From Adineta ricciae (taxonomy: Eukaryota; Rotifera; Eurotatoria; Adinetida; Adinetidae): 64,000 bases of DNA. The notes under the pieces are model-generated. The model made no database searches and had not been told where the DNA came from. It saw only the letters and a program-made list of their open reading frames with translations. This document shows, one piece after another, positions 1-25,794 of the stretch (positions within the stretch are counted from its first letter, which is position 1; the number at the start of each line of letters is the position of its first letter). A program made the position numbers and the translations under genes. The DNA is taken from positions 124,001 to 188,000 of the forward strand of contig CAJNOJ010000153.1 of assembly GCA_905250025.1 (NCBI GenBank), given 5' to 3'.

Positions 1-229
1 ATCGTCGAGGCGATGCGTAACATTTTATCAAATTATCATGAACACGGCGATTTCTTTTCCTACCTAGTTTACATACTCTTCTTCTTTTTTAATTTCTCTC
101 TTCCATAAATCATATCAACTAATCATCAACATGTCGCACAAAGTAAAGTTTTTTTAAAAGTACCAGTGCTTTGTAGATATAATCTAATCTACTTACACTA
201 ATATTTGCTTGGGATTGTTTAATTCAACT

Positions 230-1396
230 ATGGCTACAAATAATGGCGAAACTAATGCAGGCGATGCGCCATTTGTATGTATTTTTATTATTATTTTATC
301 GAAGTTAATGGTTCTGCCTATTTTTCTTAGGCTAAATCTGATCCACCAACGTCTCACTCATCAAATAAGCGACAGCCGACGTCAGATGGACTACAAGAAC
401 ACACTCGCGTTGTATCAGGATGTGCAGCCAATATCTTGTCTTCAATTGGTATTATATTCCTTAACAAATATATCTTCTCCCATTGCCAGATCAAAACGAT
501 GACGTTAATAGCTATTCAAATGGCGATCACTTGGTTGGGATTGGTCATCTGCTTGAAAATGAATACGTTCGTACGCAAAAGTGCGCCATTGATGAAAGTT
601 TTACAGTTAGCTGGCGCGTTTTGTGCGTTCGTGGTCTTTACTAATCTTTCCCTTGAATACAATACGATCGGTACATATCAACTATTCAAAGTCTTAACAA
701 CGCCCGTTGTCGCATTGATCTCCTGGCAATATTACAAAGAGAAATATTCACGAATGGTTATCGCTACATTGATACCTGTTGTCATAGGTGTTTGCACACA
801 TTCAGTTAACGATATTAAACTGACAATTTTTGGTACACTCATTGCGTCTATCGGCGTGCTTGCAGCATCGCTCTATCAAGTTTGGGTTGGTGTCTGTTTG
901 AAAGAGTTAGAAATGAAGCCACAACAATTACTATTTTATCAAGCACCTCTATCCGCGGTGTTATTGATACCGTGTATTCTGCTAATGGAAAGTTTACCGT
1001 CGTACAAAACAAGTGAAGAAGAACGAACTGCATTCTTTGCAGTTCTTGCGTCTAGCGTCGTGGCATTCGTATTCAACCTGTCCCTTTATTGGGTGATTGA
1101 TAACACGTAAGTAGTTGTTGATAATGTCATCTTGCTTTTTTCTTCTTACATTGGAATATGATCTGTATTTCTCATGTAGATCACCCTTGACATACAATAT
1201 GATTGGACATTTGAAAACTGTTTTGATACTCGTTGGTGGCTGGTTCCTATTCAATGACACATTGAACTTTAAACAATTCATTGGTATTTTATTGACATTA
1301 TTTGGTTTATTTACTTATTCATTCGTTAAAATGGGCGAAAAAAATCAATTGCCATGTAAACGATGGAATACAGATCCTGGCAATAGTATAGTCTAA
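230..1396 (+). CDS. SLC35E3-like nucleotide-sugar/triose-phosphate transporter, copy A
   Basis: Multi-pass membrane transporter of the TPT/DMT family, closest in my recognition to solute carrier 35 member E3, presumably Golgi or ER. Three exons: 230-274, 331-1106 and 1180-1396, with GT-AG introns of 56 and 73 bp, giving 345 residues. Family motifs seen: SSIGIIFLNKYIF near the first membrane helix, FTNLSLEYNTIGTYQLFKVL, and GHLKTVLILVGGWFLF with NDTLNFKQFIGI at the end. The length fits the family (about 310-350). The start is the first ATG in exon 1; the first 43 residues are polar and probably cytosolic. A second copy lies at 2002-3003. The substrate cannot be told from sequence. Confidence 0.85.
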
Positions 1397-2000
1397 ACGT
1401 CTCGACCATAATGTTCGTTCATTGACTATTTCTCTTTGCATTCTGACACAAAACGTATTCGTTCTTATGCATATAAATGTTGTGATAAATATTTGATACA
1501 ATTCACTCGCAGTTCACTATCCCATTTTGTCAAGCTTTTCGTGATCGTCAAAATTCATGTTTTATGCGTAAAGATGTCAGAGATAATAAAACATGACGTC
1601 CTACAAATGCCTTTTCATGTACGAAATCCAAAGTCGTCAGTTCGATATGTGATTTTTTTAATTTCCGACTCTACGACAAAACATTTGAATTCATTCAATT
1701 AAACGACAATAACATAAGAAACAGGTTCGCTTTAAGAATACTGATTGTGTCAATATTCTATTCGGCAAGTTCAGCAGCAGCCTTACGCCGTTTTTTCTCC
1801 TTTTTCCGGCGTTTCTTCTCTTTGACTAAGATTTGTTCACGTTCAACTTCTGCTTCTTCCAAAGCAATCTTCATAACATCGACATTTTTCGGTGGTAATT
1901 CGCCACTATCATAGAATTTCAGACGATCAGATACCTGCTGTTTCAAATGATCACCGAACACAGCAGTCGGAATGTCTACAAGAAGTAAACATAAGATTTG
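395..2000. repeat. direct repeat unit 1a (allelic overlap), partner 2002-3608
   Basis: This stretch is nearly identical to 2002-3608, covering transporter exons 2-3, the intergenic spacer and the 3' end of NOP56. It stops exactly at the N at 2001, and the partner starts right after it. That pattern suits two haplotype contigs placed in series. A real tandem duplication is the alternative. Confidence 0.85.
1758..2000 (-). CDS. NOP56: NOP56, 3'-terminal fragment (copy A)
   Basis: Last exon (1758-1975) of a Nop56-family box C/D snoRNP core protein, plus the start of the preceding intron, cut by the N at 2001. It reads [19 protein letters not shown], then a lysine-rich tail with [12 protein letters not shown] and an alanine-rich end. 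The tail is in frame and longer than in the full copy downstream, which has lost one lysine block and shifted frame. Assignment rests on comparison with the full copy at 3411-5157. Confidence 0.8.
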
Positions 2001-2001
2001 N
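2001..2001. other. single-N junction 1
   Basis: A single ambiguous base joins the NOP56 last intron of copy A (left) to the middle of transporter exon 2 of copy B (right). The left flank recurs at 3601-3608 and the right flank at 395 onward, so the two sides overlap by about 1.6 kb instead of abutting. Confidence 0.9.
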
Positions 2002-3003
2002 AAGAACACATTCGCGTTGTATCAGGATGTGCAGCCAATATCTTGTCTTCAATTGGTATTATATTCCTTAACAAATATATCTTCTCCCATTGCCAGATCA
2101 AAACGGTGACGTTAACAGCTATTCAAATGGTGATCACTTCATTGGGATTGGTCATCTGCTTGAAAATGAATACGTTCGTACACAAAAGTGTGCCATGGAT
2201 GAAAGTTTTACCGCTAGCTGCCGCTTTTTGTGCGTACGTGGTCTTTACTAATCTTTCCCTTGAATACAATACGATCGGTACATATCAACTATTCAAAGTT
2301 TTAACAACGCCTGTTGTCGCATTGATCTCCTGGCAATATTACAAAGTGAAATGTTCACGAATGGTTATTGCTACATTGATACCTGTTGTCATAGGTGTTT
2401 GCACACATTCAGTTACCGATATTAAACCGTCAATTTTTGGTACAATCATTGCGTCTATCGGCGTGCTTGCAGCATCGCTCTATCAAGTTTGGGTTGGTGA
2501 AGGTTTGAAAGAGTTAGAGATGAACTCACAACAATTACTATTTTATCAAGCACCTTTATCCGCGGTGTTATTAATACCGTGTATTCTGCTAATGGAAAGT
2601 TTACCGTCGTACAAAACAAGTGAAGAACAACGAACTGCATTCTTTGCAGTTCTTGCATCTGGCGTCGTGGCATTCGTAGTCAACCTGTCCGTTTATTGGG
2701 TGATTGAAAACACGTAAGTAATTGTTGATAATGTCATCTTGCTTTTTTCTTCTTACATTGGAATATGATCTGTATTTCTCATGTAGATCACCCTTAACAT
2801 ACAATATGATTGGACATTTGAAAACTGTTTCGATACTCGTTGGTGGCTGGTTCCTATTCAATGACACATTGAACTTTAAACAATTTATTGGTATTTTATT
2901 GACATTATTTGGTTTATTTACTTATTCATTCGTTAAAATGGGCGAACAAAATCAATTGCCATGTAAACGATGGAATACAAATCCTGGCAATAGTATAGTC
3001 TAA
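2002..3003 (+). CDS. SLC35E3-like transporter, copy B, 5'-truncated at the N
   Basis: Second copy of the transporter at 230-1396. Exon 1 and the start of exon 2 are missing because the block begins at the N; what remains is exon 2 (2002-2713) and exon 3 (2787-3003) with a conserved splice pair. The frame is open throughout. Substitutions against copy A are mostly conservative, such as AGAFCAFVV to AAAFCAYVV. Both copies look functional, as expected of two alleles. Confidence 0.8.
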
Positions 3004-3410
3004 ACGTCTCGACCATAATGTTCGTTCATTGACTATTTCTCTTTGCATTCTGACACAAAACGTATTCGTTCGTATGAATATAAATGTTGTGATAAATATT
3101 TGTTACAATTCACTCGCGGTTCACTTTCCCATTTTGTCAAGCTTTTCTTGATCGTCAAAATTCATGTTTTATGCGTAAAGATGTCAGAGATAATAAAACA
3201 TGACGTCCTACAAATGACTTTTCATGTACGAAATCCAAAGTCGTCAGTTCGATATGTGATTTTTTTAATTTCCGACTCTACGACAAAACATTTGAATTCA
3301 TTCAATTAAACAACAATAACACAAGAAACAAGTTCGCTTTAAGAATACTGATTGTGTCAAGATTCTATTCGGCAAGTTCAGCAGCTGCAGCGGCTGCTGC
3401 TTCAGCTGCC

Positions 3411-5157
3411 TTACGCCGTTTTTTTCTCTTTGACTAAGATTTGTTCACGTTCAACTTCTGCTTCTTCCAAAGTAATCTTCATAACATCGACATTTTTCGG
3501 TGGTAATTCGCCATTATCATAGAATGTCAGACGATCAGATACCTGCTGTTTCAAATGATCACCGAACACAGCAGTCGGAATGTCTACAAGAAGTAAACAT
3601 AAGATTTGTCATTAATTTGGCAGACAAGCAAACCTGAAAAACAATCGATTCGGGATGCAATTGCACATTTATTTGCCAGATATCGAGATATGCGACCCTT
3701 ATTTTGTGTATTTGCTTTACCAATATATGACGAATAGTAAATAAGACCATACTTCGGTGTGTTGCCTTTCGTTTTCAACGCCCTAGACGAATCGACAAAA
3801 GTTTCACTTCAGTCAATACAGCTCTATCGAATATTTTACCGAAAAAGCGCTTTTTCAGCACCTAAGATTTGAATAGTCGGCGCAGGATACTTCGCAAGAT
3901 TGGTTAAACTATCAGCATGAGCAATGAGACGTGCACCGACCTATAAAATGTCGCATGAAAGTAGAAAAACTAATTGTCAGCACTTACTTGTTCGCCAATC
4001 AACATTGCTAGATTTGGGGCGACTTGTCCCATTTTACTTTTCAGATACTAAACAAAAGGAATTAACGAAAACTATCGACGTCTAAATACATACTTCTTGT
4101 AAACTTTTTCGGTAGTCGAATAAATGAATGACATGATTTGCAAATGATTCGATGTTGATCAAATCAATCGGTGAAATATCCATTCCTAAAATATTCTCTC
4201 AAGCTCTGATATAAATCACACTTTATATAATCCACCGATCGTTGTCTTCATTGCCTCGAAGACTGCTGCTGTTTTTCCACTATCCATAGTGATTGCTTCT
4301 AACTCTTCCTGACGATCAATGGAGAAATCTTTTCGATTTTTGATTAAATGCACAGCACGTGCGTATGTGTAATTGTCAGTGATGATTTTGATCAATTCAG
4401 GAAAATGATAGCCATACCATTCTCTAAAGTCTGGGGTATAGACACGAAATAATTCTCTCGTGAAGGACTTTTCCGTACCAGATGCGCATGGAGAACGTAT
4501 TGATATCTTTATCGAGTTGGCCGAGTAATGTGATGGACTGAATGATCATATTATCGACACGATTTACATTGAGCTTGACTTTCGCACGAGAATATGCATG
4601 ACCCAAACCAAGTTGAGGTTTGCTTTGATTTTGATCGGTTAAGCCCTTGACCAAATTTGGGAAATGAACTCGAATACCTAGAAAAACAAACAGGTTCATG
4701 ATTCATTTTCAGCGATCTTAATTGTACCTCGTAGGAGTTCGGGTACAACTCCCGTATGTCGACAAGTAACTGAAAAGAGTTCATTAATACTTGATGCGAC
4801 GCGCGAATCAGCAACATCGAGAATCATTTTTGCACGCTTCTTCTCTTTGGGCAGATTCGTGTCGAGAAATGTCCGTAGATCATCATGGAATAAACCTTCA
4901 GAAACGGAATTGATATTGTCCAATGCATTGATACCAGATTGAAATGGATGAAATGCAACCAGTTTAACAACAGTTGCGAATTTCGATAAATCAACGACAC
5001 TTGCTTCGACTTGCGGAATGTTCATACCAATCTCCTCAAACTCCCGAAATCGAAATAGTGCGTAGCCCGGCGCATGCTCGAATAGAATGTATAATTTTGA
5101 CTAAAGAACCAAAAGAGAATCATAGTTAAGATCGCAAAAATCGTTTTTTCTCACCAT
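3411..5157 (-). CDS. NOP56: NOP56 box C/D snoRNP core protein, with a nonsense codon
   Basis: Nucleolar scaffold of the 2'-O-methylation snoRNP. Nine exons on the minus strand: 5157-5155 (Met only), 5100-4728, 4677-4479, 4423-4236, 4185-4094, 4047-3988, 3940-3840, 3782-3634, 3583-3411; introns 46-57 bp. Family landmarks: [12 protein letters not shown] at the N-terminus, [44 protein letters not shown], and the Nop-domain stretch [18 protein letters not shown] then [20 protein letters not shown]. About 445 codons, shorter than the human protein (about 594) because the charged tail is short. Joining exons 3 and 4 gives TGA where the family has Arg (MRIREWYG); base 4480 is the cause. The tail also differs from copy A by a homopolymer frameshift. 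It is either a broken allele or carries sequencing errors. Confidence 0.85.
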
Positions 5158-5193
5158 ATCTTCTTCTCACGGTTGTTCGATCAAAATACAAGT

Positions 5194-5851
5194 ATGTATG
5201 ACGATGAGCGCAGGATCGTTTTATTCATTCATCCATCAATCGCGTACAACGCTGAAAGTCTCACGGTAATTACACAGTTAACTACAATTCTAATAACCAT
5301 TCGAACGATAACTACAGAAAAATCGTCTCACACGACATCAATAATACAATCAAGCACTTTCGTAACAACCGTTTAATCAACTTCAATTAAATATCCTACC
5401 AGTCAAGGTAATTCCTCGTTTATTGTAAGTTAATTCAATTTTTCTCATCTCTCATTTCATCGACAGCACCAGTACTTTTATTTATCAGACAGGGTTGTCC
5501 GAATGGTGCAATTTGTCGAGATATAAATACAAGTTATCATTGCGATTGTTTACATAGGAACATGTCTTCAGTTGATCAATGACACATTCGATTGCACATG
5601 TGCTCCGAATTGGACAGGAATTTATTGTGAAAACGTCAGTTATGAAAATACCGGCGTTTGTCGACCGTTATTAAGTGATTATCAGTGTGAATGTCTCGAT
5701 TCTTCGTCATAAAGTATTTTCAAAAGTAACCGTAGCTCTAGGAACTGCCATGGCTTTCGTTGTTATTATGGACGTATTAAAATATCTCTTCAAAATTGAT
5801 TCAATGCAGAAGTATACGCCGACGTGCTGTGACAGTCAGATTTATCTATAA
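5194..5851 (+). pseudogene. EGF-domain membrane protein, decayed allele
   Basis: Broken counterpart of the intact gene at 15200-15951. The Ser/Thr-rich N-terminal exon is present, but a TAA replaces an Arg codon (CGA in the other copy) in the text ACCGTTTAATCA. Exon 2 lacks the segment around the first EGF cysteines and the stretch encoding EAYFARHCETSSKS, so the frame breaks twice. The EGF core CTCAPNWTGIYCE and part of the C-terminal membrane helix survive. Begins 37 bp from the NOP56 start in divergent orientation. Confidence 0.7.
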
Positions 5852-6229
5852 AAATCCAAATTCAGTTGGTTAGAATGCAATGCTTTCTTGGTCGAATGAG
5901 AAGTGTAGCAAATGTGTCATGAACGATGAACACTTCAATATCGATTTGCATTCGTCTCGCTCAAACAAATGTGATTTTCCTTGTTTAGTTTATTTTCGCG
6001 AAAAAATGAAACAGTCTTAAGACTTCGTCGAATAAACAAAAATTTATTCTCTTCTGAGACACTTTGAAAATAATAAAGGATGGAAAATGTCCGCTTGAAT
6101 ATTTGTTTACTTTTATCTCAATAGCATTTAAATATATTCGTTTATACCGGAAAATTTTTTGAATCGATCAAAAATTCAGATGAAATCTGGGTTTTTATTT
6201 TAAAAAAATCAAATGTTGATATGTCACGA

Positions 6230-7445
6230 TCAATACAATTCAGCGGTTTTCAAGTGGCCACCACTATCGTCTCCGGCTGCCAGTAAAACTTTTTCATTTG
6301 ATAAGATCGATGCTGTGTGATAATGCCGTTCATAATTCATATTTCCTGTCATTGTCCAGATGCCAGTTAATGGGCTATACAACTCAGCACTGCTAACGAT
6401 TTGCCCACCAGCCACCAAAAGTTTGCCGTTCGATAAAAGTAATGCTGTATGATAATATCGTCCGACATTCATATTTGGAGTGTTTGACCAACTCCCAGTT
6501 GATGGATCATATAGTTCAACACTTTTGAGAGCACCACCCTTCCATCCACCAGTGACTAGCACTTTTCCGTTTGATAATACACATGCTGCATGTTTATACC
6601 GTTGAACATTCATATTTACTGTTGCAGCCCATTCTAAACGAGAAGAAAGGAAGTTGTATTTGAAAACCTATGTCATAGTTTCTACTTCAGCTTACGATCT
6701 GAGCAATTGAACAGGGAAAACTTTTGAATTCGATGATTATTCCGATCAATAACGAAAATATTACCAAACGAATCAAAACTTAGACTTGACGGCTGATTCA
6801 ATTGATTAGAACCTGATCCACCTTTTTTTTATCACAACCAATAAAGCAAACGAAACCGAACTGACTTTGTCGAACAACTCGATTATTTCCGCAATCGGCA
6901 ACGAACAAAGTGGAGTTATTTTCATCGAGAAAAATTCCTCGAGGATTTCGAAGTGTTGCCGATGTCGAACCGAGATCTCCTGTTCCTGCGACGGTTAACA
7001 AATAACTCCACTCATCGGGCAACGATTTCGCAATAATTTGATGCTGGTCAGACAATGAACAGTAAAGAGTTTGGTTTAGGGTGAGAAAGATATCGATACA
7101 TCGCACACACAAATCCATTCGCAGGATTGAATTTGTCATATTCGATTTCATTTCGGTCACTCCATTTATCGATGAAAAATAAATCTCATCACTTGTCAAT
7201 ACAAATAAACTTGAGAGATTTGTTGAATTGGCTGTGATCGATTTAACTAAAGTCGAATTTACTCCGAGAAAGACGCGAATAATCCCCTGATTCTCATGTG
7301 GAATATAGATTGTGTTGCTTCCATCAATAACTATGTCAATAGGATTTAAACCAGCGATACTCTGATTGCCAATAGTTGTCCCAACTGGATTCCATGCTAA
7401 ATCCGGGGAAACTATTGGTCGATTGTATGAAATCACTAAGCCAAG
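6230..7445 (-). pseudogene. NHL-kelch repeat protein, decayed allele 1
   Basis: Minus-strand gene with NHL beta-propeller repeats upstream (about 7420-6710) and kelch/galactose-oxidase-like repeats downstream (about 6640-6230), separated by an intron (GTAAGC near 6705 to TTTAG near 6640). NHL signatures: GIFLDENNSTLFVADCGNNR and LSFDSFGNIFVIDRNNHRI. Kelch signatures: three units of the type [19 protein letters not shown]. The frame is lost in a run of eight A at about 6829-6836, where one more A would restore it. One NHL blade and one kelch unit present in the other allele are deleted here. Function unknown; such proteins are abundant in bdelloids. Confidence 0.65.
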
Positions 7446-7479
7446 TAGGTTTTTATTGTAAAATTTACACAAAACTTTT

Positions 7480-8480
7480 CTTCATTTTACCAGAGACCTC
7501 TGTAATTAGAGATGAAAAAGAAGAAATGATGGAGTTTATCATTGAACAACATTGCGATGAGATGAATTCTGATAGATTCGAAGTGAGTTTTTATAGAGAA
7601 TCTTTGTCAAGTTTTCATTCTATGCCAAGGTTCTTAGAACCTAACTTTTAAAATAATCAAAATGACATTTTACTCAGATTGTTCTCTCGATAGTCTAATA
7701 ACGATAGTCAATCGTCATGTTTCCTCCTTTGACTTATCCAATAAAAACAAAATCTATAACAATACCATTCAGATAAATCGATTAAGTCATGCGCGTATCT
7801 GCAGACATGCATGCAAACGTATAAAATCTGGCAGACAAGTATAAAAGTAAATATATTTTTTTCTCAAACTATATACAAACAATCAAAACAGACTGTTCAT
7901 CGAATAACTCTATCGACAAATATTTACATCAAGCTTCTTTCCGTAAAACGCTTTAAAAAATTTCCATGAAAATTTTCTATTCCCAGAAATGCCAATAAGT
8001 TCCCCGGGTGTACACGAACATTCACTATAAACATCCATATTGTTTCGCATATTTTGACTCTCCTTTCTTACTTAATAATCGACATTTATATGTTGACACA
8101 ATAATTATTGTTGACATCGGAGATAGCTATACCTCTCAACAAGACTGCCTAGTTCTATATTTTTCTTGTAGATTATCTTCTGGCGTTGTGTATGTACATG
8201 TCGCACCACATTGTCTTTCCATATACTAACAGAAAAGGAAGTTACTTAATGTATATTTTCATAATACAACGGTATCTTTCTTTTCCTTCCATAAATATTC
8301 TGTTAGGACAATTGCCTCCTGACAATCAGATAGAACTCAAGTGTTTCTTTCTTTCTTTCTTTCTGCTTCGAGTAATATTAGGAGATAAAAGACAAGAATT
8401 TCCTGTTCTCTTTCTCAGTAGATTTATAATTCGAGTATAGATACTCTGTGTAATTCGCACTTGAAGATAAAAATTCTTTA
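7480..8480. other. intergenic, allele 1
   Basis: No gene I can support. Short open frames occur but are not conserved in frame between the two alleles. The matching stretch 17830-18948 carries extra sequence of roughly 90 bp near 18037-18124 and a short insertion near 18205. Contains the TTTC microsatellite at 8344-8363 just upstream of the 309-residue gene. Confidence 0.5.
8344..8363 (+). repeat. (TTTC)5 microsatellite, length-variable between alleles
   Basis: Five TTTC units here against four at 18812-18827 in the other copy. It lies about 120 bp upstream of the start codon at 8485. A simple slippage polymorphism. Confidence 0.9.
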
Positions 8481-8484
8481 GAAT

Positions 8485-9414
8485 ATGAATCAACAAATGG
8501 TATCATCAAGCCGAGTTTCCCATATTTCAAATATGTTTCCATCAGCAAATATCTACGAAGATGAACAATATATTGCCAATCTGATTAATCAACACTTAGC
8601 TTTATGTTCTTCAGGAACGTCAGGCAAAGTAAAGACGATTATCAAGCCAGTTCTTACGGAAGATATCTCATTATTCAACGACACAGGTTTCCTTGCTAAT
8701 CAACTTCGTCGTTCGGAAATCTCTTATCCGTATGAGTACAAGACACCTGCGAACGTCAAGCAAAACTCTGGTGTTACATTACGAAACACCTCAATGACTA
8801 TGAATGATTTCAATGAAGAAATTCCAATCAATGTCAATCATCTACGTCGACAACATAGAGGAGGAATTAGAAAACGAATCAAATCGATTTCCAAAGTGCG
8901 TGTTGTTGATCAATACGCCGAACCGATCGAGAGCGCTGTGCAACTTGATCATCGACAACAATCGGCTCTGTCACATCCGATTACCTATAGAATACCTGTC
9001 CATATTCAACCGACTACTGGCACAATTTCAAGAACGCATTATGCGATAACAGAAGAGGAACCCGCACAAGAAACATCGATTCATGTTGCTCAATTACGAC
9101 AGCCATTATTTGCACCGATGAACGCAGCTAAACGGTCAGTTTCGTCTATTATCGCACCAAGTGCATTCGTTGACATACCCGTTATTCACGAAACTCCGAT
9201 TTACGTTGATCGTGTTCGTCATCTGATTCAACCGCAAATTGTTCAATATAAACCCTCGAAAAATATTCTACCATCTATAGGTTCACTGTTTCAAACAAGA
9301 TTCGCGCTGAGCCAAGAGGAATCGCCTGAAGAAAGAGCGTTTTATGTTAATCAACTACGTCAGCCTACTAGGAAAGACCCATCGAATAATGAGAAAGGAT
9401 GGGTTTGGGTGTAG
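8485..9414 (+). CDS. 309-residue protein with a degenerate internal repeat, allele 1
   Basis: I do not recognise a known family. Single exon, ATG start, 309 residues, no signal peptide or membrane helix, so probably intracellular. An internal repeat of about 40-47 residues recurs: each unit carries an acidic residue, an aliphatic-x-Val/Ala stretch and then L-R-(R/Q). Clear examples end at residues 74-76 (ANQLRR), 118-122 (VNHLRRQ), 202-206 (VAQLRQP), 242-246 (VDRVRH) and 288-293 (VNQLRQP), with a weaker unit near 152-158. The C-terminus is GWVWV. The other allele (18949-19878) differs at 8 of 309 residues with no indel, which argues for purifying selection and a real protein. Confidence 0.75.
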   Translation: MNQQMVSSSRVSHISNMFPSANIYEDEQYIANLINQHLALCSSGTSGKVKTIIKPVLTEDISLFNDTGFLANQLRRSEISYPYEYKTPANVKQNSGVTLRNTSMTMNDFNEEIPINVNHLRRQHRGGIRKRIKSISKVRVVDQYAEPIESAVQLDHRQQSALSHPITYRIPVHIQPTTGTISRTHYAITEEEPAQETSIHVAQLRQPLFAPMNAAKRSVSSIIAPSAFVDIPVIHETPIYVDRVRHLIQPQIVQYKPSKNILPSIGSLFQTRFALSQEESPEERAFYVNQLRQPTRKDPSNNEKGWVWV

Positions 9415-9730
9415 AGAGATTGATTATGTTTATTTTATTCATATTTATTCGCCCTGATCCCTTGCTTGGTTTTTTATCTTTTTTTAAATTTTACACATCG
9501 CACTTTGAATAATGTCTAATGCCAACGATTCTCGATTATGTATAATAAATATTTATCAACAATATGCACTTTCAGCGTGAAGTATGTGTTTAGATTGTCT
9601 ATCTGATCCGAAATTTCGACGACCTCACTCTATTTTGCCATCCTCAGTATTTCTGGGATAACTGTCGATCGTCGTTTGCATTTTGTCACACAATACATCA
9701 TGAGTTTGACCAGTCGTCGAACAAAAAGTT

Positions 9731-10770
9731 TTAAAGCATAGTTGTCAAACCACCAAAAATTCCCACCACTGTTGTCACAATATAGGTCCATGCGTTCCTT
9801 GTTTCAGTAGTTGAATTTGTAGAATATTGACTTGATGTTGAAGAGTTAAGTGCTGTGATATTGGATGCTGAGTAGAGATAGGGCTATATTGTGTTCATAT
9901 ATTCTTGACTATAGAAGCATTATAAGGTCGACTGGAGTAAAGCTTCAATTATATAATATTCTGTAAAGAATACGAGAATTGCAAATAAGGTGGTAGGGTC
10001 CGGATGTGTGGCTATAATAGTTTCTAGTAGGCATTTTGATGAAAGCTTATAGCTACAGTTCCCAAAGCCGAGTAGGTCTGCGGATGTTTCCATGTCATCA
10101 GAAACTTTGAGTTGGTAGTTTTTTGACCCAGCGGAGAGGAGCGCATTGCTCTGAGTTGTATCACGAATCAAATAGAGTGACAAGAGAAAACTGGTGATTG
10201 TTGATGATTCGAACTGATCAATCAGTGCTCGAGTTTGGACTCGAAAAAGATCTTCAGATGTGATTGATGCAGTGGCATACTGATAGGAATAGAACTATTG
10301 TAAACTATTTCTGATTGTTTTACTCGCACTTTTGCATAACATCTGCAAAGCTTGGAATGAAAGTGGATCGATCCATTAAAAGTCTTCTAGAAAATATATT
10401 ACATCATCTTCCGTGAAAAAATAACTTATTCATCGGTGAGTGATGAAAGCATTGGCGAACACTCGATGAAATGTGTATCGAATTTCAAAAGACTTTTCAT
10501 AGTTGGCAGATGTGGACGAGTGAAGTATATGAGGTGAAGATTGTGAGAGACAGGATGAAGAGAAGAACGAATAATCTTGTTGATAGTCATCTGTAAAAGG
10601 TGAATGAATGGAAACATATGAAGAGTTTGAAAGTAGTCCTTGATTCGGTGCCATACCGTTGGTCTTTGTGTGACAATCGTGCTTACTAGGGTAGTACAAA
10701 ATACATGGCACTTGATGAATGACGCTGCATGTATAATATACTAATGATGAACATCTCGTTGTAATTGATT
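9731..10770 (-). pseudogene. decayed two-TM Cys-rich membrane protein (same family as 43058-47078), allele 1
   Basis: Pieces of one unit of the family at 43058-47078 can be followed in several frames on the minus strand: an N-terminal LSTRLFVLLFILSLTIFISY-type helix (clearest in the other allele), a middle TIRNSLQ...SITSEDLFRVQ stretch, and a C-terminal TTVVGIFGGLTT helix ending near 9731. Stops and frame changes are frequent, and about 55 bp present in the other copy are missing. Not a working gene in this copy. Confidence 0.6.
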
Positions 10771-11816: not shown

Positions 11817-11848
11817 GGACAGAAGAATACATGAAATCATTTTCAAAA

Positions 11849-14074: not shown

Positions 14075-14155
14075 ATCAATCAGTCTGCTATTGTTTGAAA
14101 ATCGTAAAAAAGATTAAATGTTTTATCGTTGTAGGCCCTTTTCACGAACAGAAAT

Positions 14156-15024: not shown

Positions 15025-15029
15025 AGATG

Positions 15030-15030: not shown

Positions 15031-15163
15031 TACCAATCTCCTCAAACTCCCAAACTCGAAATAGTGCGTAGCCCGACGTATGCTCGAATAGAATGTATAA
15101 TTTTGACTAAAGAACCAAAAGAGAATCATAGTTAAGATCGCAAAAATCGTTTTTTCTCACCAT
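15031..15163 (-). CDS. NOP56: NOP56 5' fragment, allele 2
   Basis: First Met codon (15163-15161), the 54-bp first intron and the beginning of exon 2 of NOP56, cut by the N at 15030. It reads [15 protein letters not shown] then EFEEIG, matching the full copy ([12 protein letters not shown] there) with a few substitutions. It heads divergently from the EGF gene at 15200. Confidence 0.7.
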
Positions 15164-15199
15164 ATCTTCTTCTCACGGTTGTTCGATCAAAATACAAGT

Positions 15200-15951
15200 A
15201 TGAATGACGATGAGCGCATGATTGTTTTATTCATTCATCCATCAATCGCGTACAACGCTGAAAGTCTCACGTCAACTAGACAATTAACTACAATTCTAAC
15301 AACCATTCGAACGACAACTACAGAAAAATCGTCTCACTCGACATCAATAATACAATCAAGTACTTTCGTAACAACCATTCGATCAACTTCAATTAGATAT
15401 CCTACCAGTCAAGGTAATTCCTTGTTTATTGTAAGTTAATTCAATTTTTCTCATGTCTCATTTCATCGACAGCACCAGTACTTTTATTTATCAGGCAGGC
15501 TTGTCCGAATCAGACGTATATTAGCATTCATTGTAACATATCTGCAACACCATGTGAAGTTGTAAATCTCTGTCAGAATGGTGCGATTGTTTACATAGGA
15601 ACATGTAATCAGTTGATCAATGACACATTCGATTGCACATGTGCTCCGAATTGGACAGGAATTTATTGTGAAAACGTCAGTTATGAAAATACCGGCGTTT
15701 GTCGATCGTTATTAAGTGATTATCAGTGTGAATGTCTCGATGAAGCTTATTTTGCTCGACATTGTGAAACTTCATCGAAGTCGATTCTTCGTCATAAAGT
15801 ATTTTCAAAAGTATTCGCTTCGATTGCTACCGTAGCTCTAGGAACTGCCATGGCTTTCGTTGTTATTATGGACGTATTAGAATATCTCTTCAAAATTGAT
15901 TCAATGCAGAAGTATACGCCGACGTGTTGTGATAATCAGATTTATCTATAA
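15200..15951 (+). CDS. EGF-domain, mucin-like single-pass membrane protein, intact allele
   Basis: Probable type I surface protein of unknown ligand. Two exons, 15200-15413 and 15473-15951, 230 residues. Exon 1 encodes a Thr/Ser-rich stalk-like segment (LTTILTTIRTTTTEKSSHS). Exon 2 encodes EGF-type cysteine spacing: CEVVNLCQNGAI, C near TCNQL, CTCAPNWTGIYCE, then CRSLLSDYQCECLDEAYF and a second partial EGF. A C-terminal helix ASIATVALGTAMAFVVIM is followed by a short tail. No clear signal peptide precedes the ATG chosen; an upstream exon may be missing, but NOP56 starts only 37 bp away. The other allele (5194-5851) is broken. Confidence 0.65.
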
Positions 15952-16333
15952 AAATCCAAATTCAATTGGTTAGAATGCAATACTTTCTCGATCGAATGAG
16001 AATGTGTAGCAAATGTGTCATGAACGATGAACACTTCAATATCGGTTCGCATTCGTCTCGCTCAAACAAATGTGATTTTCCTTTTTTTTAGTTTATTTTC
16101 GCGAAAAAATAAAACGATCTTAAGACTTCGTCGAATAAACAAAATTATATTCTCTTCTGAGACACTTTGAAAATAATAAAGGATGGAAAATGTCCGCTTG
16201 AATATTTGTTTACTTTTATCTCAATAGCATTTAAATAGATATTCGTTTTTACCGGAAGCTTTTTTAGATCGCTCAAAAATTCAGATGAAATCTCGGTTTT
16301 TATTTTTTTAAATCAAATGTTGATATGTCACGA

Positions 16334-17746
16334 TCAATACAATTCAGCGTTTTTCAAATGACCACCGCTATCGTCTCCGGCTGTCAGTAACACTTTTCCA
16401 TTTGATAAGATCGATGCTGTGTGGTGATACCGTTCATCATTCATATTTCCCGTCATTGTCCACATGCCAGTTAATGGGTCATACAACTCAGCGCTGTTGA
16501 AAACACCACTGGTACCTTGTCCGCCAGTGACTAATACTTTTCCATTTAACAACGTTGTTGCTGTGTGAGAATATCGTGCACCACTCATCGCTCCAGTCAT
16601 TGTCCAACTGCTAGTTAATGGATCGTACAATTCAGCACTGCTAACGATTTGCCCACCAGTCACCAATAGTTTGCCGTTCGATAAAAGTAATGCTGTATGA
16701 TAATATCGTTCGACATTCATATTTGGAGTGTTTGACCAACTTCCAGTTGATGAATCGTATAGTTCAGCACTTTTGAGAGCACCACCCTTCTATCCACCAG
16801 TGACTAGCACTTTTCCGTTTGATAATACACATGTTGCATGTTTATACCGTTGAATATTCATATTTACTGTCGCAGCCCATTCTAAACGAGAAGAAAAGAA
16901 GTCATATTTGAAAATTTATGTCATATTATCTATTTCAGCTTACGATCTGAGTAATTGAACAGGGAAAACTTTTGAATTCGATGATTATTCCGATCAATAA
17001 CGAAAATATTACCAAACGAATCAAAACTTATACCTGACAGCTAATTCAATTGGTTATAGAACCTGATCCAGCTTTTTTTTATCACAACCAATAAAGCAAA
17101 CGAAACCGAACTGACTTTGTCGAACAACTCAATTATTCATTGAATCAGCAATAAAAAAATATCCGCTTCCGTCCAACATTATTGCTGTTGGGCAATTCAA
17201 GTCAATCGTCTGAATAGTTTGTCCGAGAAGCGAACCTGATTCGAATGATTGAATCCGATTATTTTCGCAATCGGCAACGAAGAAAGTTGAGTTATTTTCA
17301 TCGAGAAAAATTCCTCGAGGATTTCGAAGTGTTATCGATGTCGAACCGGGACCTCCTGTTTCTGCGACGGTTAACAAATAGCTCCACTCATCGAACAACG
17401 ATTTCGCAATAATTTGATGCTGATCAGACAATGAACAGTAAAGAGTTTGGTTTACAGTGAGAAAAATATCGACGCATCGTACATACGAATCCATTCGCAG
17501 GATTGAATTTTTCACGTTCAATTTCATTTCAGTCACTCCATTTATCGACGAAAAATAAATCTCATCACTTGTCAATACAAATAAACTTGATAGGTTTGTT
17601 GAATTTACTCCGAGAAAGACGTGAATAATCTCCTGATTCTCATGTGAAATAAAGATTGTGTTGCTTCCATCAATAACTATGTCAGTAGGATTTAAACCAG
17701 CGATACTCTGATTGCCAATAGTTACCCCAACTGAATTCCACGCCAA
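16334..17746 (-). pseudogene. NHL-kelch repeat protein, decayed allele 2
   Basis: Same gene as 6230-7445 but keeps more repeats: an extra NHL blade (LNCPTAIMLDGSGYFFIADS) and four kelch units against three. Broken at a TGA in place of Arg after DSMNN, at a TAG in place of Trp in the first kelch unit (GGA TAG AAG against GGA TGG AAG), and by the same eight-A run that disrupts the other allele. No working allele is visible in this window. Confidence 0.65.
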
Positions 17747-18948
17747 ATCCGGGGAAATGATCGGTCGATTGTATGAAATCGCTAAACCAAGTAGGTTTTT
17801 CTTGTAAAATTTACAGAAAGTTTCTCTTCATTTTACCTGAGACCTCTGTAATTAGAGATAAAAAGACAAAACGACGGAGTTTATCATTGAACAACATTGT
17901 GATGGGATAAATTCTAATCAATTCGAAGTGAGTTTTTATAGAAAATCTTTGTCAATTTTTCATTCTATGCCAAGGTTGTTAGAACTTAATTTTTAAAATA
18001 ATCAAAATGACATTTTACTCAGATTGTTCTCTCGATAAACGTTTGTTGACCTTTCTCAGTGCGTCGTTTAATTTCATGAAAAATAGTTTTCTTAGAAAAT
18101 TTTCTCAAACAACTTGCCCCTATCCTCATACGTCTAATGACGATAGTTAATTGTCATATTTTCTCCTTCGACTTGTCCAATAAAACCGAAATCTATAACA
18201 ATACCACTCAGAAAGTTCGTTTGGACGTGGTTCCATTCAGATAAATCGATTAAGACATGCGCGTATCTGCAGACATGTATACAAACGTGTAAAATCTGAC
18301 AAACAAGTATAAAAGTAAGTATCTTTTTTTCTCAAACTATATACAAACAATCAAAACAGACTGTTTCTCGAATAACTCTATCGAAAATATTTACTTCAAG
18401 CTTCTTTCCGGAAAACGCTTTAAAAACTTTCCAGGAAAATTTTCTATTCCCAGAAATATCAATAAGTTCCTCGTGTGTACACGAACATTCACTATAAACA
18501 TCCATATTGTTTCGCATATGTTGACTCTCCTATCTTACTTAATAATCGATATTTATATGTTGAAACAATAATTATTGTTGACATCGAAGATAGCTATATC
18601 TCTCAACAAGATTGCCTAGTTCTATATTTTTCTTGTAGATTATCTTCTGGCGTTGTGTATGTACATGTCGCGCCACATTGTCTTTCCATAATACTAACAG
18701 AAAAGGAAGTTACTTAATCTATATTTTCGTAATACAACGGTATCTTTCTTTTCCTTCCATAAATATTCTGTTAGGACAATTGCTTCCTGACAATCAAATA
18801 GAACTCAAGTGTTTCTTTCTTTCTTTCTGCTTCGAGTAATATTAGGAGATAAAAGACAAGAATTTCCTTTTCTCTTTCTCAGTAGATTTCTGATTCAAGT
18901 ATAGATACTCTGTGTAATTCGCACTTAAAGATAAAAATTCTTTGGAAT

Positions 18949-19878
18949 ATGAATCAACAAATGGTATCATCAAACCGAGTTTCCCATATTTCAAATATGT
19001 TTCCATCAGCAAATATCTACGAAGATGAACAATATATTGCCAATCTGATTAATCAACACTTAGCTTTATGTTCTTCAGGAACGTCAGGCAAAGTAAAGAC
19101 GATTATCAAGCCAGTTCTTACGGAAGACATCTCATTATTCAACGACACAGGTTTCCTTGCCAATCAACTTCGCCGTTCGGAAATCTCTTATCCGTATGAG
19201 TACAAGACACCTGCGAACGTCAAGCAAAACTCTGGTGTTACATTACGAAATACTTCGATGACTATGAATGATTTCAATGAAGAAATTCCAATCAATGTCA
19301 ATCATCTACGTCGACAACATAGAGGAGGAATTAGAAAACGAATCAAATCGATTTCCAAAGTGCGTGTTATTGATCACTACGCCGAACCGATCGAGAGCGC
19401 TGTGCAACTTGATCATCGACAACAATCGGCTCTGTCACATCCGATTACCTATAGGATACCTGTCCATATTCAACCGACTACTGGCACAATTTCAAGAACG
19501 CACTATGCGATAACAGAAGAGGAACCCGCACAAGAAACATCGATTCATGTTGCTCAATTACGACAGCCATTATTTGAACCAATGAACGCAGCTAAACGGT
19601 CAGTTTCGTCCATCATCGCACCGAGTACATTCGTTGACATACCCGTTATTCACGAAACTCCGATTTATGTTGATCGTGTTCGTCATCTGATTCAACCGCA
19701 AATTGTTCAATATAAACCGTCGAAAAATATTCTACCATCTATGGGTTCACTGTTTCAAACAAGATTCGCGCTGAGCCAAGAGGAATCGCCTGGAGAAAGA
19801 GCGTTTTATGTTAATCAACTACGTCAGCCTACTAGGAAAGACCCAGCGAATAATGAGAAAGGATGGGTTTGGGTGTAG
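18949..19878 (+). CDS. 309-residue repeat protein, allele 2
   Basis: Intact second allele of the gene at 8485-9414: same length, same start, 8 residue changes (for example VVDQ to VIDH and LFAP to LFEP), none in the LR core of the repeats. The upstream microsatellite has four TTTC units. Unknown function. Confidence 0.75.
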   Translation: MNQQMVSSNRVSHISNMFPSANIYEDEQYIANLINQHLALCSSGTSGKVKTIIKPVLTEDISLFNDTGFLANQLRRSEISYPYEYKTPANVKQNSGVTLRNTSMTMNDFNEEIPINVNHLRRQHRGGIRKRIKSISKVRVIDHYAEPIESAVQLDHRQQSALSHPITYRIPVHIQPTTGTISRTHYAITEEEPAQETSIHVAQLRQPLFEPMNAAKRSVSSIIAPSTFVDIPVIHETPIYVDRVRHLIQPQIVQYKPSKNILPSMGSLFQTRFALSQEESPGERAFYVNQLRQPTRKDPANNEKGWVWV

Positions 19879-20210
19879 AGAGATTGATCATGTTTATTTT
19901 ATTCATATTTATTCGCCCTGATCCCTTGCTTGGTTTTTTATCTTTTTTTATTTTACATCGCACTTTGAATAATGTCTAATGTCAACGAGTCTCGATTATG
20001 TATAATAAATATTTATCAACAATATGCACTTTCAGCGTGGAGTATGTGCGTGTAGATTGTCTATCGGATCCGAAATTTCGACGACCTCACTCTATTTTGC
20101 CACACTAGGTGACCTAAATTAGCTTTCTATCCTCAGTATTTCTGGGATAACTGTCGATCATCGCTTCCATTTTGTCACACAATACATTATGAGTTTGAGC
20201 AGTCGTGGAA

Positions 20211-21290
20211 CAAAAAGTTTTAAAGCAGTTATCAAACCACCAACAATTCCCACCACTGTTGTCACAATATAGATCCATGCATTCCTTGTTTCAATAGTTG
20301 AATTTGTAGAATATTGACTTGATGTCGAAGAGTTAAGTGCTGTGATATTGGATGCTGAATAGAGATAGGGCTATATTGTGTTGATATATTCTTGCCTATA
20401 GAAGCATTATAAGGTCGACTGGAGTAAAGCTTCAATTTTATAACATTCTGTAAAGAATCTGAGAATTGCAAATAAGGAGGTAGGGTCCGGATGTGTGGTT
20501 ATAATAGTTTCTATTTAGTAGACATTTCGATGAAAGCATACAGCTACAGTTCCCAAAGCCGAGCGATTCTGTGGATGTTTTCATGTCGTCAGAAACTTTG
20601 AATTGGTAGTTTTTTGACCCAGCGGAGAGGAGCGCATTGCTCTGAGTTGTATCATGAATCAAACTGAATGACAAGAGAAAACTGTTGGTTGTTGATGATT
20701 CGAACTGATCAATCAGTGCTCGAGTTTGGGCTCGAAAAAGATTTTCAGAGGCGATTGATGCAGTGACATACTGATAAGAATAGAACTATTGTAAACTATT
20801 TCTGATTGTTTTACTCGCACTTTTGCATAACATCTGCAAAGCTTGGAATGAAAATGGGCCGATCCATTGAACGTCTTCTACAAAATATATTACATCATCT
20901 TCCGTGAAAAAATAACTCATCCGTCGGTTAGCGATAAAAGCATTGGTAAACACTCGATGAAATGTGTATTCAATGTCAAAAGACTTTTCATAGTTGTCAG
21001 ATATGTATGTGCATGGATATGTGAGCGTTGGTAATTGAACGATAAATGTTTTATTGATGTGGACGAGTGAAGTATATGAGATGAAGATTGTGAGAGACAG
21101 GATGAAGAGAAGAACGAATAATCTTGTTGATAGTCATCTGTAGAAGGTGAATGAGTGGAAACATATGAAGATTTTGAAAGTAGTCCTTGATTCGATGCCA
21201 TACCGTTGGTCTTTGTGTGACAACCGTGTTTACTAGAATAGTACAAAATACACGGTGCATGAGGGATGACGCTGTGTAATATACTAAACT
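20211..21290 (-). pseudogene. decayed two-TM Cys-rich membrane protein, allele 2
   Basis: Counterpart of 9731-10770. The N-terminal helix is clearest here: LSTRLFVLLFILSLTIFISY, then SLVHINKTFIVQLPTLTYP, homologous to the start of each unit of the gene at 43058-47078. A TGA lies just before this helix and the frame changes several times downstream. Keeps about 55 bp that the other copy has lost. Confidence 0.6.
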
Positions 21291-22156
21291 CTGTTTAATA
21301 AGAATATCTTGTAGCTGAGAAGTAGAAAATATATGCCTGCATGGTGAACATCTGCTTGTAGTTGATTTTCAAGAAATACGTAAGTATCTCCATAGTAGGA
21401 ACTTTTTTTTATTAGAGGAAGGAAGTAAACCGTATGTATCTCATTGAATAACGCAAATTACTTACCTTCCATTATGAAAATACACTAGCTGTGTAATCAA
21501 TAACTGTAACTTTGATAATTCACTATTGAGTAATGATTAGCGAACAGGTGGCGAAATTTAAATAAGAAGCACTGGAAAAGAATAATAAATGCTAATGATG
21601 CACAAGATCGCATAAAACTACTAAATAAAAAAAGAACACTTCTTAACGAAATACTCAATGAGTATACGATGATTGTATAAAAGTCTACATTTCATTCGCA
21701 CTAGTATTGTTCCGTCTTTGTGCAACTACTTACTTTATGTATTGAGATCTAGTTCTTTTTTTCCGAGAAACATTCTTCTCGTTCATTTTAAAATATTAGT
21801 CCTGCCTTATATATTTATGCTGAGTATACGTAAGGAAAAGTTGTTATTTCCTTTTTCACACTTGAAGAACATTCTACAACTAGACGTTAATTTTTCTGAC
21901 GCAGTCCTAGAAATAACGAATAACTCAATCATATATGGGGGAAAACCCGTACGGGCACAGAAAGTAGATGAGAGCTGTGTCATAAAACTTTTTAAAGAAG
22001 AATTGACAATTAAACACTAAACAGAGTTGATTTCATTTTGTGTATGGTATTTCCACATACGCATTGTATCAATTAATAGCTGGAGATATTTTCTGATGAG
22101 CTATACTTGTTTCTGCTGTTTGCACAATTTAACATACTTTTTCAATGATAAATCAA

Positions 22157-22335
22157 GTTATGCAGAGAAAAAAATTGATACCAAAAAACGGCAGCGTGGA
22201 ACAAATACTACAGGACAGCTTCTGTCTGTTTGAGATCGAAAATCATCATGCAACTTGAAAGTGTTTAAAAGGGAATAAAATCTATTCAGATTGATATCTG
22301 TACGAGATGTATCAGTAGTAGGTGAGACAAGTCAA
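22157..22335. repeat. 179-bp allele-specific segment flanked by TCAA
   Basis: Absent from the other allele, where the flanks join directly (near 11557). It is flanked by TCAA on both sides. No terminal inverted repeats seen. Either a small insertion with a 4-bp target duplication or a microhomology deletion in allele 1. Confidence 0.55.
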
Positions 22336-22583
22336 ATATGATTGTCGCTATTTGCCTAGAAGACGTCGCATATCAATCAATAAATTCATTCTTAGCGGTC
22401 CAGGAAGAACATCTAACTGTTCTTACTCTAAATTTTGAGAAAAAAGAATCTTATCTTTTAACACTTGACATGAAAATACACTACCAACACGATTGCTCGG
22501 AAATGTTAGTCATCATCAAATACGCATTCGTGTGTCAATCGGTGAGTCATTTTTCTTCTTTTGTTATTGCAACACGTTTTGCA

Positions 22584-22592
22584 TATATAAAA
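22584..22592 (+). promoter_or_regulatory. TATA box of F-box gene, allele 2
   Basis: TATATAAAA 41 bp before the ATG at 22625, identical in position to allele 1. Confidence 0.55.
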
Positions 22593-22624
22593 GGACAGAA
22601 GTATACATGAAATCATTTTCAAAA

Positions 22625-24346
22625 ATGTCTGAAAAAACTTCGCTGACATTACTTGATCACCTACCAACAGAAATTTTATTCGACATCTTCGACTATCTTT
22701 CATGTAATGATATTCTCTATGGATTTTACAATTTGAACGAGAAATTCAATCGTATTTTATTGGAACATTATCCACATTTGAACAGCTTGGAAACTCCAAA
22801 CAACGATTTCAATTTCTGGCAAACTATTCTTCCGATTATTCAACTCCGAGTCGAACATGTAACAATCACTAGCATTGATTCTGGTCTCACGCTGAATGCA
22901 TTCCCTAATCTCAAATCACTCGTCATCTCCACAGCAGTTCCCATTTACTCCGATGAATTAAAACCGATAATCGAAGATGAAAAAATTCGTCAATTAACAA
23001 CACTTAAACTTCGCAGTGAAATTTTGAGCCGCGCAGATCTCAATGAAACATCTTATATTATTCCGACTATATTTCATCATGCAAATTCTATCGAAACATT
23101 CGAGTTTCTGTCGACATTTGACTTACATCGATTGAAAAACGTGATCAACGTCACAATTCAATCGTTGACAGTGAAACTGGGAAACAGCACATCTATACTA
23201 ACTTTAATAACACACACGCCGAACTTACGGTATCTAAATGCTGTTCTGTATCCAATGTCCACCCACCCTCGTCCAGAACAGACTGTCAATTTAACGCACG
23301 TTCAATTAAGAACACTTCTCATTACATCAGAAAATGGTTCCATCAAAAACCAGAGTTTTGCTAGATTGTCGAATATAATTAAACAATTTTCAACTTCATT
23401 AGTTCGATTATCGCTGAAGTTAAGTTCAATTATATCAACAGACACTCAATTTGATGGTCATATACTCCGAAACCAACTGCTAAATCCGATGACGAAATTG
23501 AAAAATTTTCATCTCTTTGTCACATTCGATGAAGAGCCAACAGAAACCAGTACATTGCTATCCACATTTCAAAATCAATTTTGGTATAACCATCGTTGGG
23601 CGGTCGGAGTTTATGGGAAGCATTTATTTACATTACCATTTCACTTTAAGGAACTGAACTGTTTTACTGATGTCGATGAAATCAAGTCAAGTAATTCGAA
23701 AATGTTATCTACATGGCCGTACGTGACATTAATCGACTTGTCTCAATGCAACAATTTGGATGTAAATTTAATCAAGCAATTGAAAACCAACATGCCGAAT
23801 TTAACAACACTAATCTTGAGTGCGGAATCAATGAACAACTTAGTGATAGATGAGACTGTGACATTGGATAATGTTAGTACTATTCATTGTAAAGGCGAAT
23901 ACCTGCAAAATATTAAACAGTGGCTAGTCAAGGTCGTTCCAAACACAAAAAGATTGGTTTTATCGTATCGACCACAATCCGCAACATCTTCCTTGAACCG
24001 AACGGTGTATTTGCATAAACTTGATGCGTACTTTCGTGGTCCACAAACCATTAGAAATTATACTTATTTTCTAAATATTCAACATGTTGATGTCAAATTT
24101 ACCGTGGACGACGCCGAGGATGTCCATAGGCATGTGTTACGTCTTATTCGGGAGTTTTTCGAGATGTTCAAGAATTTGAATTCATTTACATTTGAGTTTC
24201 ATCAAAATATTTTCGATATGAACAATATCCCGTTCAGAGATCCAGACGAACTGTTTAAGTTATTAAATATGGACAGAATTTCGCAGAAATATCGTCTGAA
24301 ACGCGTCGACAACTATATTCAATTTATCAAAAAAACTCGTGTATAA
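22625..24346 (+). CDS. F-box protein with LRR-like region, allele 2
   Basis: Intact second allele of the gene at 11849-13570, 573 residues and no indels. The F-box is conserved (LDHLPTEILFDIFDYLSCND). By eye about 30 of the substitutions fall in about 170 central residues (from FLSTFDLHRLKN to WYNHRWAVGVY), and fewer than 20 in the remaining 400. This uneven pattern suggests selection on, or conversion of, the substrate-binding part. Confidence 0.8.
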   Translation: MSEKTSLTLLDHLPTEILFDIFDYLSCNDILYGFYNLNEKFNRILLEHYPHLNSLETPNNDFNFWQTILPIIQLRVEHVTITSIDSGLTLNAFPNLKSLVISTAVPIYSDELKPIIEDEKIRQLTTLKLRSEILSRADLNETSYIIPTIFHHANSIETFEFLSTFDLHRLKNVINVTIQSLTVKLGNSTSILTLITHTPNLRYLNAVLYPMSTHPRPEQTVNLTHVQLRTLLITSENGSIKNQSFARLSNIIKQFSTSLVRLSLKLSSIISTDTQFDGHILRNQLLNPMTKLKNFHLFVTFDEEPTETSTLLSTFQNQFWYNHRWAVGVYGKHLFTLPFHFKELNCFTDVDEIKSSNSKMLSTWPYVTLIDLSQCNNLDVNLIKQLKTNMPNLTTLILSAESMNNLVIDETVTLDNVSTIHCKGEYLQNIKQWLVKVVPNTKRLVLSYRPQSATSSLNRTVYLHKLDAYFRGPQTIRNYTYFLNIQHVDVKFTVDDAEDVHRHVLRLIREFFEMFKNLNSFTFEFHQNIFDMNNIPFRDPDELFKLLNMDRISQKYRLKRVDNYIQFIKKTRV

Positions 24347-24798
24347 TTTTTTAGAAGTTTTGTATTGTTTCTTTTGTCATTTTATCAATAGATTGCCTCA
24401 CGCTGAATAATTTCAGAGGTTAATATCATTGCATAGTCTTCGGAAAATTCCAACTAAATCAAGACACATTTTCCATGGTCTTCTGTTCTGGCGTCATGCA
24501 GCCACCGGAGAAGATTGTCAATAGTGATCTCCAACATCTCTTCCAATCTGAAGTCTCTGTTTGTAATTATTTTACAATGTTCTTCGCGGGAAAAGTAAAC
24601 AATTAACATTTGCCTTGCATATCTGGCCTCAAATTTCAATTTTCTTCTCTCTGAAACAATCGACGACGTTTCTCTTCAGCCTTGAGATGACCAGACTTTA
24701 TCGCAAGAAGAAAACTGAGAAAATATATTGGAAAAATCTAACTAACATTAATAATGCATAAAGAAAGAGAGAAAGCATACGCCTCCGTCCTCGAAGAG

Positions 24799-24840
24799 TA
24801 TATAAGTGCATGTACGCATGATTATTTAACGCATAATCAT
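24799..24840 (+). promoter_or_regulatory. TATA box plus 8-bp inverted repeat, LysM gene, allele 2
   Basis: TATATA at 24799-24804; ATGATTAT at 24818-24825 and ATAATCAT at 24833-24840 with the same spacer as allele 1. Confidence 0.5.
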
Positions 24841-24921
24841 ATCAATCAGTCTGCTATTGTTTGAAAATCGAAAAAAAGATTAAACATTTTATTGTTGTAG
24901 GCCCTTTTCACGAACAGAGAT

Positions 24922-25789
24922 ATGGCGGAAGCAGTCGACTCCATACATAAGAGACGTAACTCTGACATAGAAATTGATGATCGTATCTTAATTCGAAGTA
25001 AGATTTCATGCGAAAAGTTTTCCAACCAAGCATATTTCAAATCGCTTTTGAGGGCGTGAATGGAGCAGCTTACAAGTGGTCGCGTCATGTTTAGTCGGGT
25101 TCATAGTGGGTATTCTCTTCAGTATGTACCATACGGTATCGACGGTTTACCCTACATTCAATGGTGTTTGGATATATCGAATCGATAATATTGGTACCAG
25201 TATCTACCTGATTTAAATTCATTTCTCAAATATCTCATAGTTTAGAACTGTTTTTATCGCCAATACCGAAAAGTTTGGATCAAATTAACGATCAATGGAA
25301 GTCAAAAGATTATGATAGTATTCTTTGGAACGAGAGTTGTCCCACACATCGGATGGTACCACGTGAGACGTTATATATACTTTCGTTTAAGTACGGAGTT
25401 TCGGTTGATGAGCTGATTGCTCTGAATCCTGTTGTGAACGTGACGGAGCGAACGACTGGGATAGTCATACGGCTACCATGTTATCGTATGTATCGAAACT
25501 TTCATTAAAATCTGCTCTACTTAAATAAATAATAATGCGATTAGTGTTGGTGTCACAGCGTATATACTATCATGGCATGTATTCCGGCTCAAAAGCGTGG
25601 TTTCAACACACAATTGGTCCAGACGACACAGTTGGTAAGCTTGTTCGGTATTACGGTGCTGAACTGGAAGATATTGTAAATGCCAATCCGGGAATTCAAC
25701 CTGACGTAGTGGTTAATGGACAAAAAGTTCAAGTACCTATTAGCATTCGACAGGCCATCCGGTTTCTGTCTGCCTACCAAGGAAAATAG
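24922..25789 (+). CDS. membrane-anchored protein with two LysM domains, allele 2
   Basis: Four exons: 24922-24997, 25053-25193, 25246-25485, 25545-25789; 233 residues, same architecture as 14156-15024. The LysM exons differ at about five residues in 160 (for example WDESC to WNESC, GPEDT to GPDDT). Exon 1 shares only about 10 of 25 residues with allele 1 (MAEAVDSIHKRRNSD here against MAQPIDGVHTGYNSN), and the first intron is equally diverged. The membrane segment also varies (LQVVASCLVGFIVGILF). The intron 1 acceptor is GAG instead of TAG. Confidence 0.8.
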
Positions 25790-25794
25790 AGATG

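Follow-up and report, generated by a model that had tools for sequence, protein, structure and literature searches.

Repeated Blocks on a Scaffold of the Bdelloid Rotifer Adineta ricciae Are Most Likely Two Alleles of One Locus Joined in Series

Repeated Blocks and Genes in the Analyzed Window

The analyzed window is a stretch of 64,000 nucleotides from the bdelloid rotifer Adineta ricciae (assembly GCA_905250025.1), located at positions 124001-188000 of the 252,508-bp scaffold CAJNOJ010000153.1, herein referred to as C153. Three single Ns are found in the window, at positions 2001, 15030, and 61606 (C153:126001, C153:139030, and C153:185606), and each of them separates two similar copies of a DNA block. 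These blocks, named X, Y, and Z, are the subject of this study. Positions without a prefix are those of the window. The assembly searched contains 130,461,839 bases in 1033 contigs and includes the scaffolds C1 and C17 mentioned below. The G+C content of the window, by base counts, is 36.0%; values of 35.6% for A. ricciae and 30.8% for A. vaga have been reported (PMC5916493).

Block X (395-2000 and 2002-3608) is 95.3% identical over 1608 columns in the self-comparison of the window, in agreement with an earlier note on this DNA. The second pair claimed there, block Y, is also present; its left copy starts in the alignment at 5025, not 5026, and ends at 15029, and its right copy covers 15031-25794. 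The alignment of Y consists of ordered pieces of 90.8-100% identity with indels between them. The left copies of X and Y stop one base before the Ns and the right copies start one base after them, exactly as had been described. The third N, at 61606, was overlooked in the earlier note and marks block Z, an overlap of about 35 kb: 26192-29374 matches 61730-64000 by self-comparison, and the match continues beyond the window to C153:222707, alongside 26192-61605. Thus, all three Ns lie exactly at block borders, and a gap is found between the copies on one scaffold. In total, 54,712 of the 64,000 window bases have a partner, defined as a collinear copy of at least 83% identity on another contig of C153. 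The earlier estimate of about 11.6 kb counted twice is correct for the pairs X and Y and too low overall, because the N at 61606 has the same structure and more partners exist elsewhere on the scaffold.

Three genes are open in both copies of the doubled blocks: an exon of a TPT-type transporter, with PF03151 matched in both copies, an open reading frame (ORF) without a Pfam match, and an F-box-like gene. Synonymous (Ks) and nonsynonymous (Ka) divergence, calculated with our own NG86 script, was 0.066 and 0.050 for the transporter exon, 0.069 and 0.011 for the ORF, and 0.165 and 0.042 for the F-box-like gene. Constraint is therefore seen in two of the three genes; it is not clear in the transporter exon, which has a Ka/Ks of 0.76 and begins at a contig edge in its right copy. 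The F-box-like protein has 592 amino acids, and its match lies below the Pfam cut-off. Its best named relatives, among 28 matches, belong to Adineta steineri (62%) and A. vaga (52%), followed by Rotaria, which fits the bdelloid setting proposed from the sequence earlier. These three gene models would be counted twice in the present assembly; the concern that gene counts are inflated here was justified and, if anything, understated. No tRNA was found in the window by ARAGORN with bacterial settings.

Tiling of the Scaffold into Two Haplotype Series

The tiling, the contig-against-contig comparison, and the gap test described below cover C153:25001-252508 (227.5 kb; 227,495 contig bases). This region contains 13 single Ns, which divide it into 14 contigs, numbered c0-c13 in scaffold order. 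In the all-against-all comparison, these contigs sort into two collinear series. Series A (105,163 bp) includes c1, c3, c4, c5, c6, c8, c11, and c12; series B (122,332 bp) includes c0, c2, c7, c9, c10, and c13. The labels denote the tiling only, phase switches inside a contig being invisible at this level. The window itself holds the end of c6 (1-2000; c6 is C153:116559-126000) and the whole of c8 (15031-61605), both of haplotype A, as well as the whole of c7 (2002-15029) and the start of c9 (61607-64000; c9 ends at C153:206671), both of haplotype B. The Ns at 2001, 15030, and 61606 therefore separate c6 from c7, c7 from c8, and c8 from c9, as given by both self-comparison and tiling. The contigs, blocks, and further stretches of the window are given on the plus strand; the Ns and the 5.6-kb segment described below carry no strand.

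Partners were found for 181,249 of the 227,495 bases. The weighted identity per contig pair is 91.9-95.3%, so that the two series are about 5-8% apart, and placed on one axis they cover a locus of about 128 kb. A median divergence of 4.55% between homologous gene copies was reported for A. ricciae (PMC5916493); the divergence between A and B agrees with this gene median, the value for whole DNA being somewhat higher here. Allele-like divergence and collinearity, as expected for a false heterotype duplication, are thus both seen. A palindromic arrangement was also considered and rejected, since contigs of this region share no inverted match reaching 300 bp and 83% identity.

Within each series, neighboring contigs nearly abut. 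The steps between same-series neighbors are -7, -189, 4891, 5336, 1416, 159, and 1053 bp in A and -110, -118, 274, 2776, and -6 bp in B. The value of 274 holds if the repeat with which c9 opens is aligned with A; otherwise this step is 397. Two of these steps are visible in the window. The stretch 3609-5024 of B has no A partner on the scaffold, as it falls in the A gap between c6 and c8; its copies are found on C1 (94%) and C17 (71%). The 397 bp of A at 25795-26191 have no partner at the start of c9 and correspond to the B gap between c7 and c9. Because c5 lies inside the span of c2, c3 and c4 were expected just upstream and were found there (C153:55001-70000); this expectation was unrecorded beforehand. 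Outside the window, at C153:206672, B has a single N where A has about 2.8 kb extra; B may carry a deletion here, or a real gap may have been reduced to one base.

Contig Ends That Contradict the Scaffold Order

Several contig ends join contigs that are separated on the scaffold. The last 110 bp of c0 are identical to the first 110 bp of c2, with the 12.8-kb c1 placed between them. In the same way, the last 118 bp of c2 (C153:95805-95922) are identical to the first 118 bp of c7 (2002-2119), although the scaffold puts 30.1 kb between these ends; c7 thus follows c2 and not c6. The final 6 bases of c10 also recur as the start of c13, an agreement that is weak taken alone. Additionally, c3 and c4 share an exact overlap of 189 bp that was left unmerged across an N.

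A further link is provided by a transposon. Inverted termini of a repeated element, identical over 181 bp, stand where c1 ends and where c3 starts (C153:44463-44674 and C153:95924-96100, about 51 kb apart), in haplotype A only. At least 44 matches to this element, including these two, were found in the assembly, 40 of 132 candidates having been scored. In c2, the outer flanks of the two termini adjoin at a single site without interruption (C153:53924-53930), which is the empty site in B. The two termini can be read as the ends of one insertion in A, between which the 51-kb B contig c2 was set. The target duplication, judged by eye, is perhaps TAA. Matches of 100% to the full 212-bp transposon end occur at five other places in the assembly; the family therefore looks recently active.

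These links bear directly on the possibility that X, Y, and Z are true tandem duplications, with allele-like copies in series on one chromosome, as was once discussed for bdelloids and offered as an alternative in the earlier note. The scaffold is indeed written in this order, and a genuine tandem gene pair (51174-51781 and 52288-52895; 79%) exists at this locus; that pair lies in one contig, with no N, and is found in both haplotypes (C153:212082-213804). The borders of all three blocks, in contrast, fall on an N. For true tandems the scaffold order should be the order of the molecule, and it is contradicted by the overlaps of c0 with c2 and of c2 with c7 and by the transposon split between c1 and c3. 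Some ten successive duplications, abutting with gaps of 0-5 kb, would also be needed. We therefore regard true tandem duplication as very unlikely, and there is hardly any chance that even one of the pairs arranged tail-to-head consists of allele-divergent copies truly in tandem on the same chromosome. Such a pair, if real, would be relevant to the old claim that bdelloid genomes defy sorting into haploid sets.

Comparison of Gaps and Control Positions

In the gap test, the 300 bp to the left of a gap were required to recur to its right and the 300 bp to the right to recur to its left. As controls, 400 random positions were drawn, and 43 of them within 700 bp of a gap were dropped, leaving 357. 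Both flanks recur tail-to-head at 8 of the 13 single-N gaps and at 1 of the 357 random positions. Seven of the eight positive gaps switch between A and B, and the eighth (C153:99377) is the 189-bp exact overlap. At the remaining five gaps recurrence is limited to the right flank, found again on the left, as at 120 of the 357 random positions; four of these gaps (C153:102668, C153:116558, C153:206672, and C153:232574) join neighbors of the same series. The fifth, C153:245017, is the last gap, and the contig to its right reaches the scaffold end. Overlapping flanks were also found at all three gaps in the examined parts of C1 and C17, with overlaps of 3.1 kb at 92.4% (in a tandem-repeat region), 352 bp at 97.4% across 11 Ns, and 179 bp at 98.9%.

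Order of Contigs and the Scaffolding Tool

The contigs of C153 follow the order of their start positions in the locus in 13 of 13 neighbor pairs. Ordering by contig end was tried as well and rejected, as it fits only 9 of 13 pairs (with the end of c12 estimated), because the contained contigs c3, c4, c5, and c11 follow the contig that spans them. RaGOO sorts contigs by the start and then the end of their main alignment and joins them with N padding (PMC6816165), and C153 resembles such scaffolds in its start ordering and N-joined contigs. It may differ in its padding of one N, and one gap of C1 has 11 Ns. Section 17 of PMC7943196 names RaGOO for sister bdelloid species, not for A. ricciae.

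Alternatively, the haplotypes may have been placed in series by a scaffolder using linkage from mate pairs or long reads, such as SSPACE or SSPACE-LongRead, and not by reference order. A single n is the SSPACE output for a negative gap left unresolved; the passages on SSPACE-LongRead do not say so. Tools of this type were applied to the 2018 assembly of A. ricciae, for which SSPACE, SSPACE-LongRead, transcript scaffolders, and Redundans are named (PMC5916493, section 16). The placement of the contained c3, c4, c5, and c11 after the spanning contig, with start order in 13 of 13 pairs, is, on the other hand, the stated rule of RaGOO (PMC6816165). A linkage scaffolder is accordingly a possible but distinctly less favored source of this order.

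Further Copies in the Assembly

All four contig ends at the first junction (the ends of c2 and c6 and the starts of c7 and c8) fall inside a 5.6-kb segment (C153:123643-129251, of which 1-5251 is in the window). This segment carries the transporter gene and is present with the same borders in both C153 haplotypes. A further copy is found at C1:290445-294899 (92-94%), and A and B are closer to each other (95.3%) than either is to it. In the examined sequence, the C1 match ends at both borders of the segment. Triploidy, hinted at by a third copy of X, was rejected on this ground, a dispersed copy being likelier. The matches of C1 and C153 to C17 are mostly 66-74%, which suggests that C1 is the older place of the segment.

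The C1 copy shows that a segment of the X region occurs elsewhere, and a dispersed repeat lies within Z; both would suit the view that the copies are old paralogues or repeats and not alleles, whether joined rightly or wrongly. The partners, however, are collinear over about 128 kb. For 7 kb of Y compared with the whole assembly, one allele-like partner was found, on C153, and the others did not exceed 76% (6 of 6 candidates scored). For 7 kb of Z, one allele-like partner was likewise found on C153, and the others represent one dispersed repeat (40 of 155 candidates scored, so that match counts for Z are lower bounds). Outside that repeat, the scored candidates for these parts of Y and Z include no further match above 76%. 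We consider the paralogue explanation extremely unlikely.

Three observations weigh against reading the blocks as two alleles scaffolded in one row. The first is the third copy of X and its neighborhood on C1. Second, no allele-like copy was found in the assembly for either of the control stretches of 7 kb taken from C1 and C17, so uncollapsed alleles are not the rule throughout; at these stretches the alleles may have been collapsed or one of them removed. Third, gap lengths vary: all 13 gaps in C153:25001-252508 are single Ns, as are one gap of C17 and one of C1 in the examined parts, and the other C1 gap has 11 Ns, which disagrees with padding of constant length.

Probable Origin of the Repeated Blocks

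Even with these points, the blocks are almost certainly two alleles of one Adineta locus that were assembled separately and scaffolded in one row, an ordinary assembly artifact. The placement of unmerged haplotypes in series, which had been the other suggestion from the first inspection, is well supported by the contig ends. This explanation starts from direct observations, namely, the two-series tiling, the exact end overlaps, the split transposon insertion, and the start order. The haplotypes A and B, presumably alleles of one animal, would have ended up in separate contigs owing to their divergence of about 5-8%. The contigs of both haplotypes would then have been lined up during scaffolding, sorted by their start in the locus, with one N between neighbors; a reference-guided tool such as RaGOO may have done this ordering. 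Each haplotype appears to be broken at different places, several of them in repeats, with the result that the tail of a contig would overlap the head of the next contig, of the other haplotype, and read like a tandem duplication.

False heterotype duplications whose copies are separated by a gap have been documented as a class of assembly error (Ko et al., 2022; PMC9516828). In C153, as in that class, divergent alleles appear as paralogues on a single scaffold, and gaps separate the copies. The C153 blocks differ in forming a staircase that extends over most of the scaffold; the usual criteria for the class are read depth and k-mers. From sequence comparison, assignment of the blocks to this known class, with no real duplication, is most likely.

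Homologous blocks on one bdelloid scaffold were once taken as a sign of ameiotic evolution (PMC5916493). Nowell et al. (2018; PMC5916493) described two cases of linked homologous blocks in A. ricciae, both tandem, and noted that scaffolding errors may account for some of the breaks at Ns. These cases resemble the present one in the tandem linkage of homologous blocks and in the Ns at the breaks; they are located on ARIC00305 and ARIC00659, either of which may or may not be the locus of C153, and the two assemblies are not of the same size. Bad scaffolding can mimic linked homologues (PMC7953838), and the C153 case fits the suspicion of Nowell et al. that scaffolding errors are involved.

For C153, 227.5 kb stand for a locus of about 128 kb, so gene counts, calls of tandem duplication, and linkage of homologues taken from this scaffold would be wrong. 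Claims on the ameiotic structure of bdelloid genomes have been built on linkage of this kind; A. vaga has reportedly been studied since then at chromosome level. As biology, the duplication is most likely absent, and the case is useful as a warning. Exact end overlaps and transposons split between separated contigs expose such errors without reads.

Repeats at Breakpoints and Elsewhere

The break between c1 and c3 lies within the repeated transposon, and the head of c9 (61607-61729) is a dispersed repeat with 26 matches, including itself. In haplotype A, a dispersed repeat of about 560 bp is located within Z at 36952-37512; it has many copies elsewhere, with longer matches of 77-89%, and at its site the B allele has a different sequence of about 1.9 kb. 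On C1, units of about 141 bp are arrayed in tandem (C1:240206-242840 and C1:245217-245948), and the array is broken by a single-N gap with overlapping flanks.

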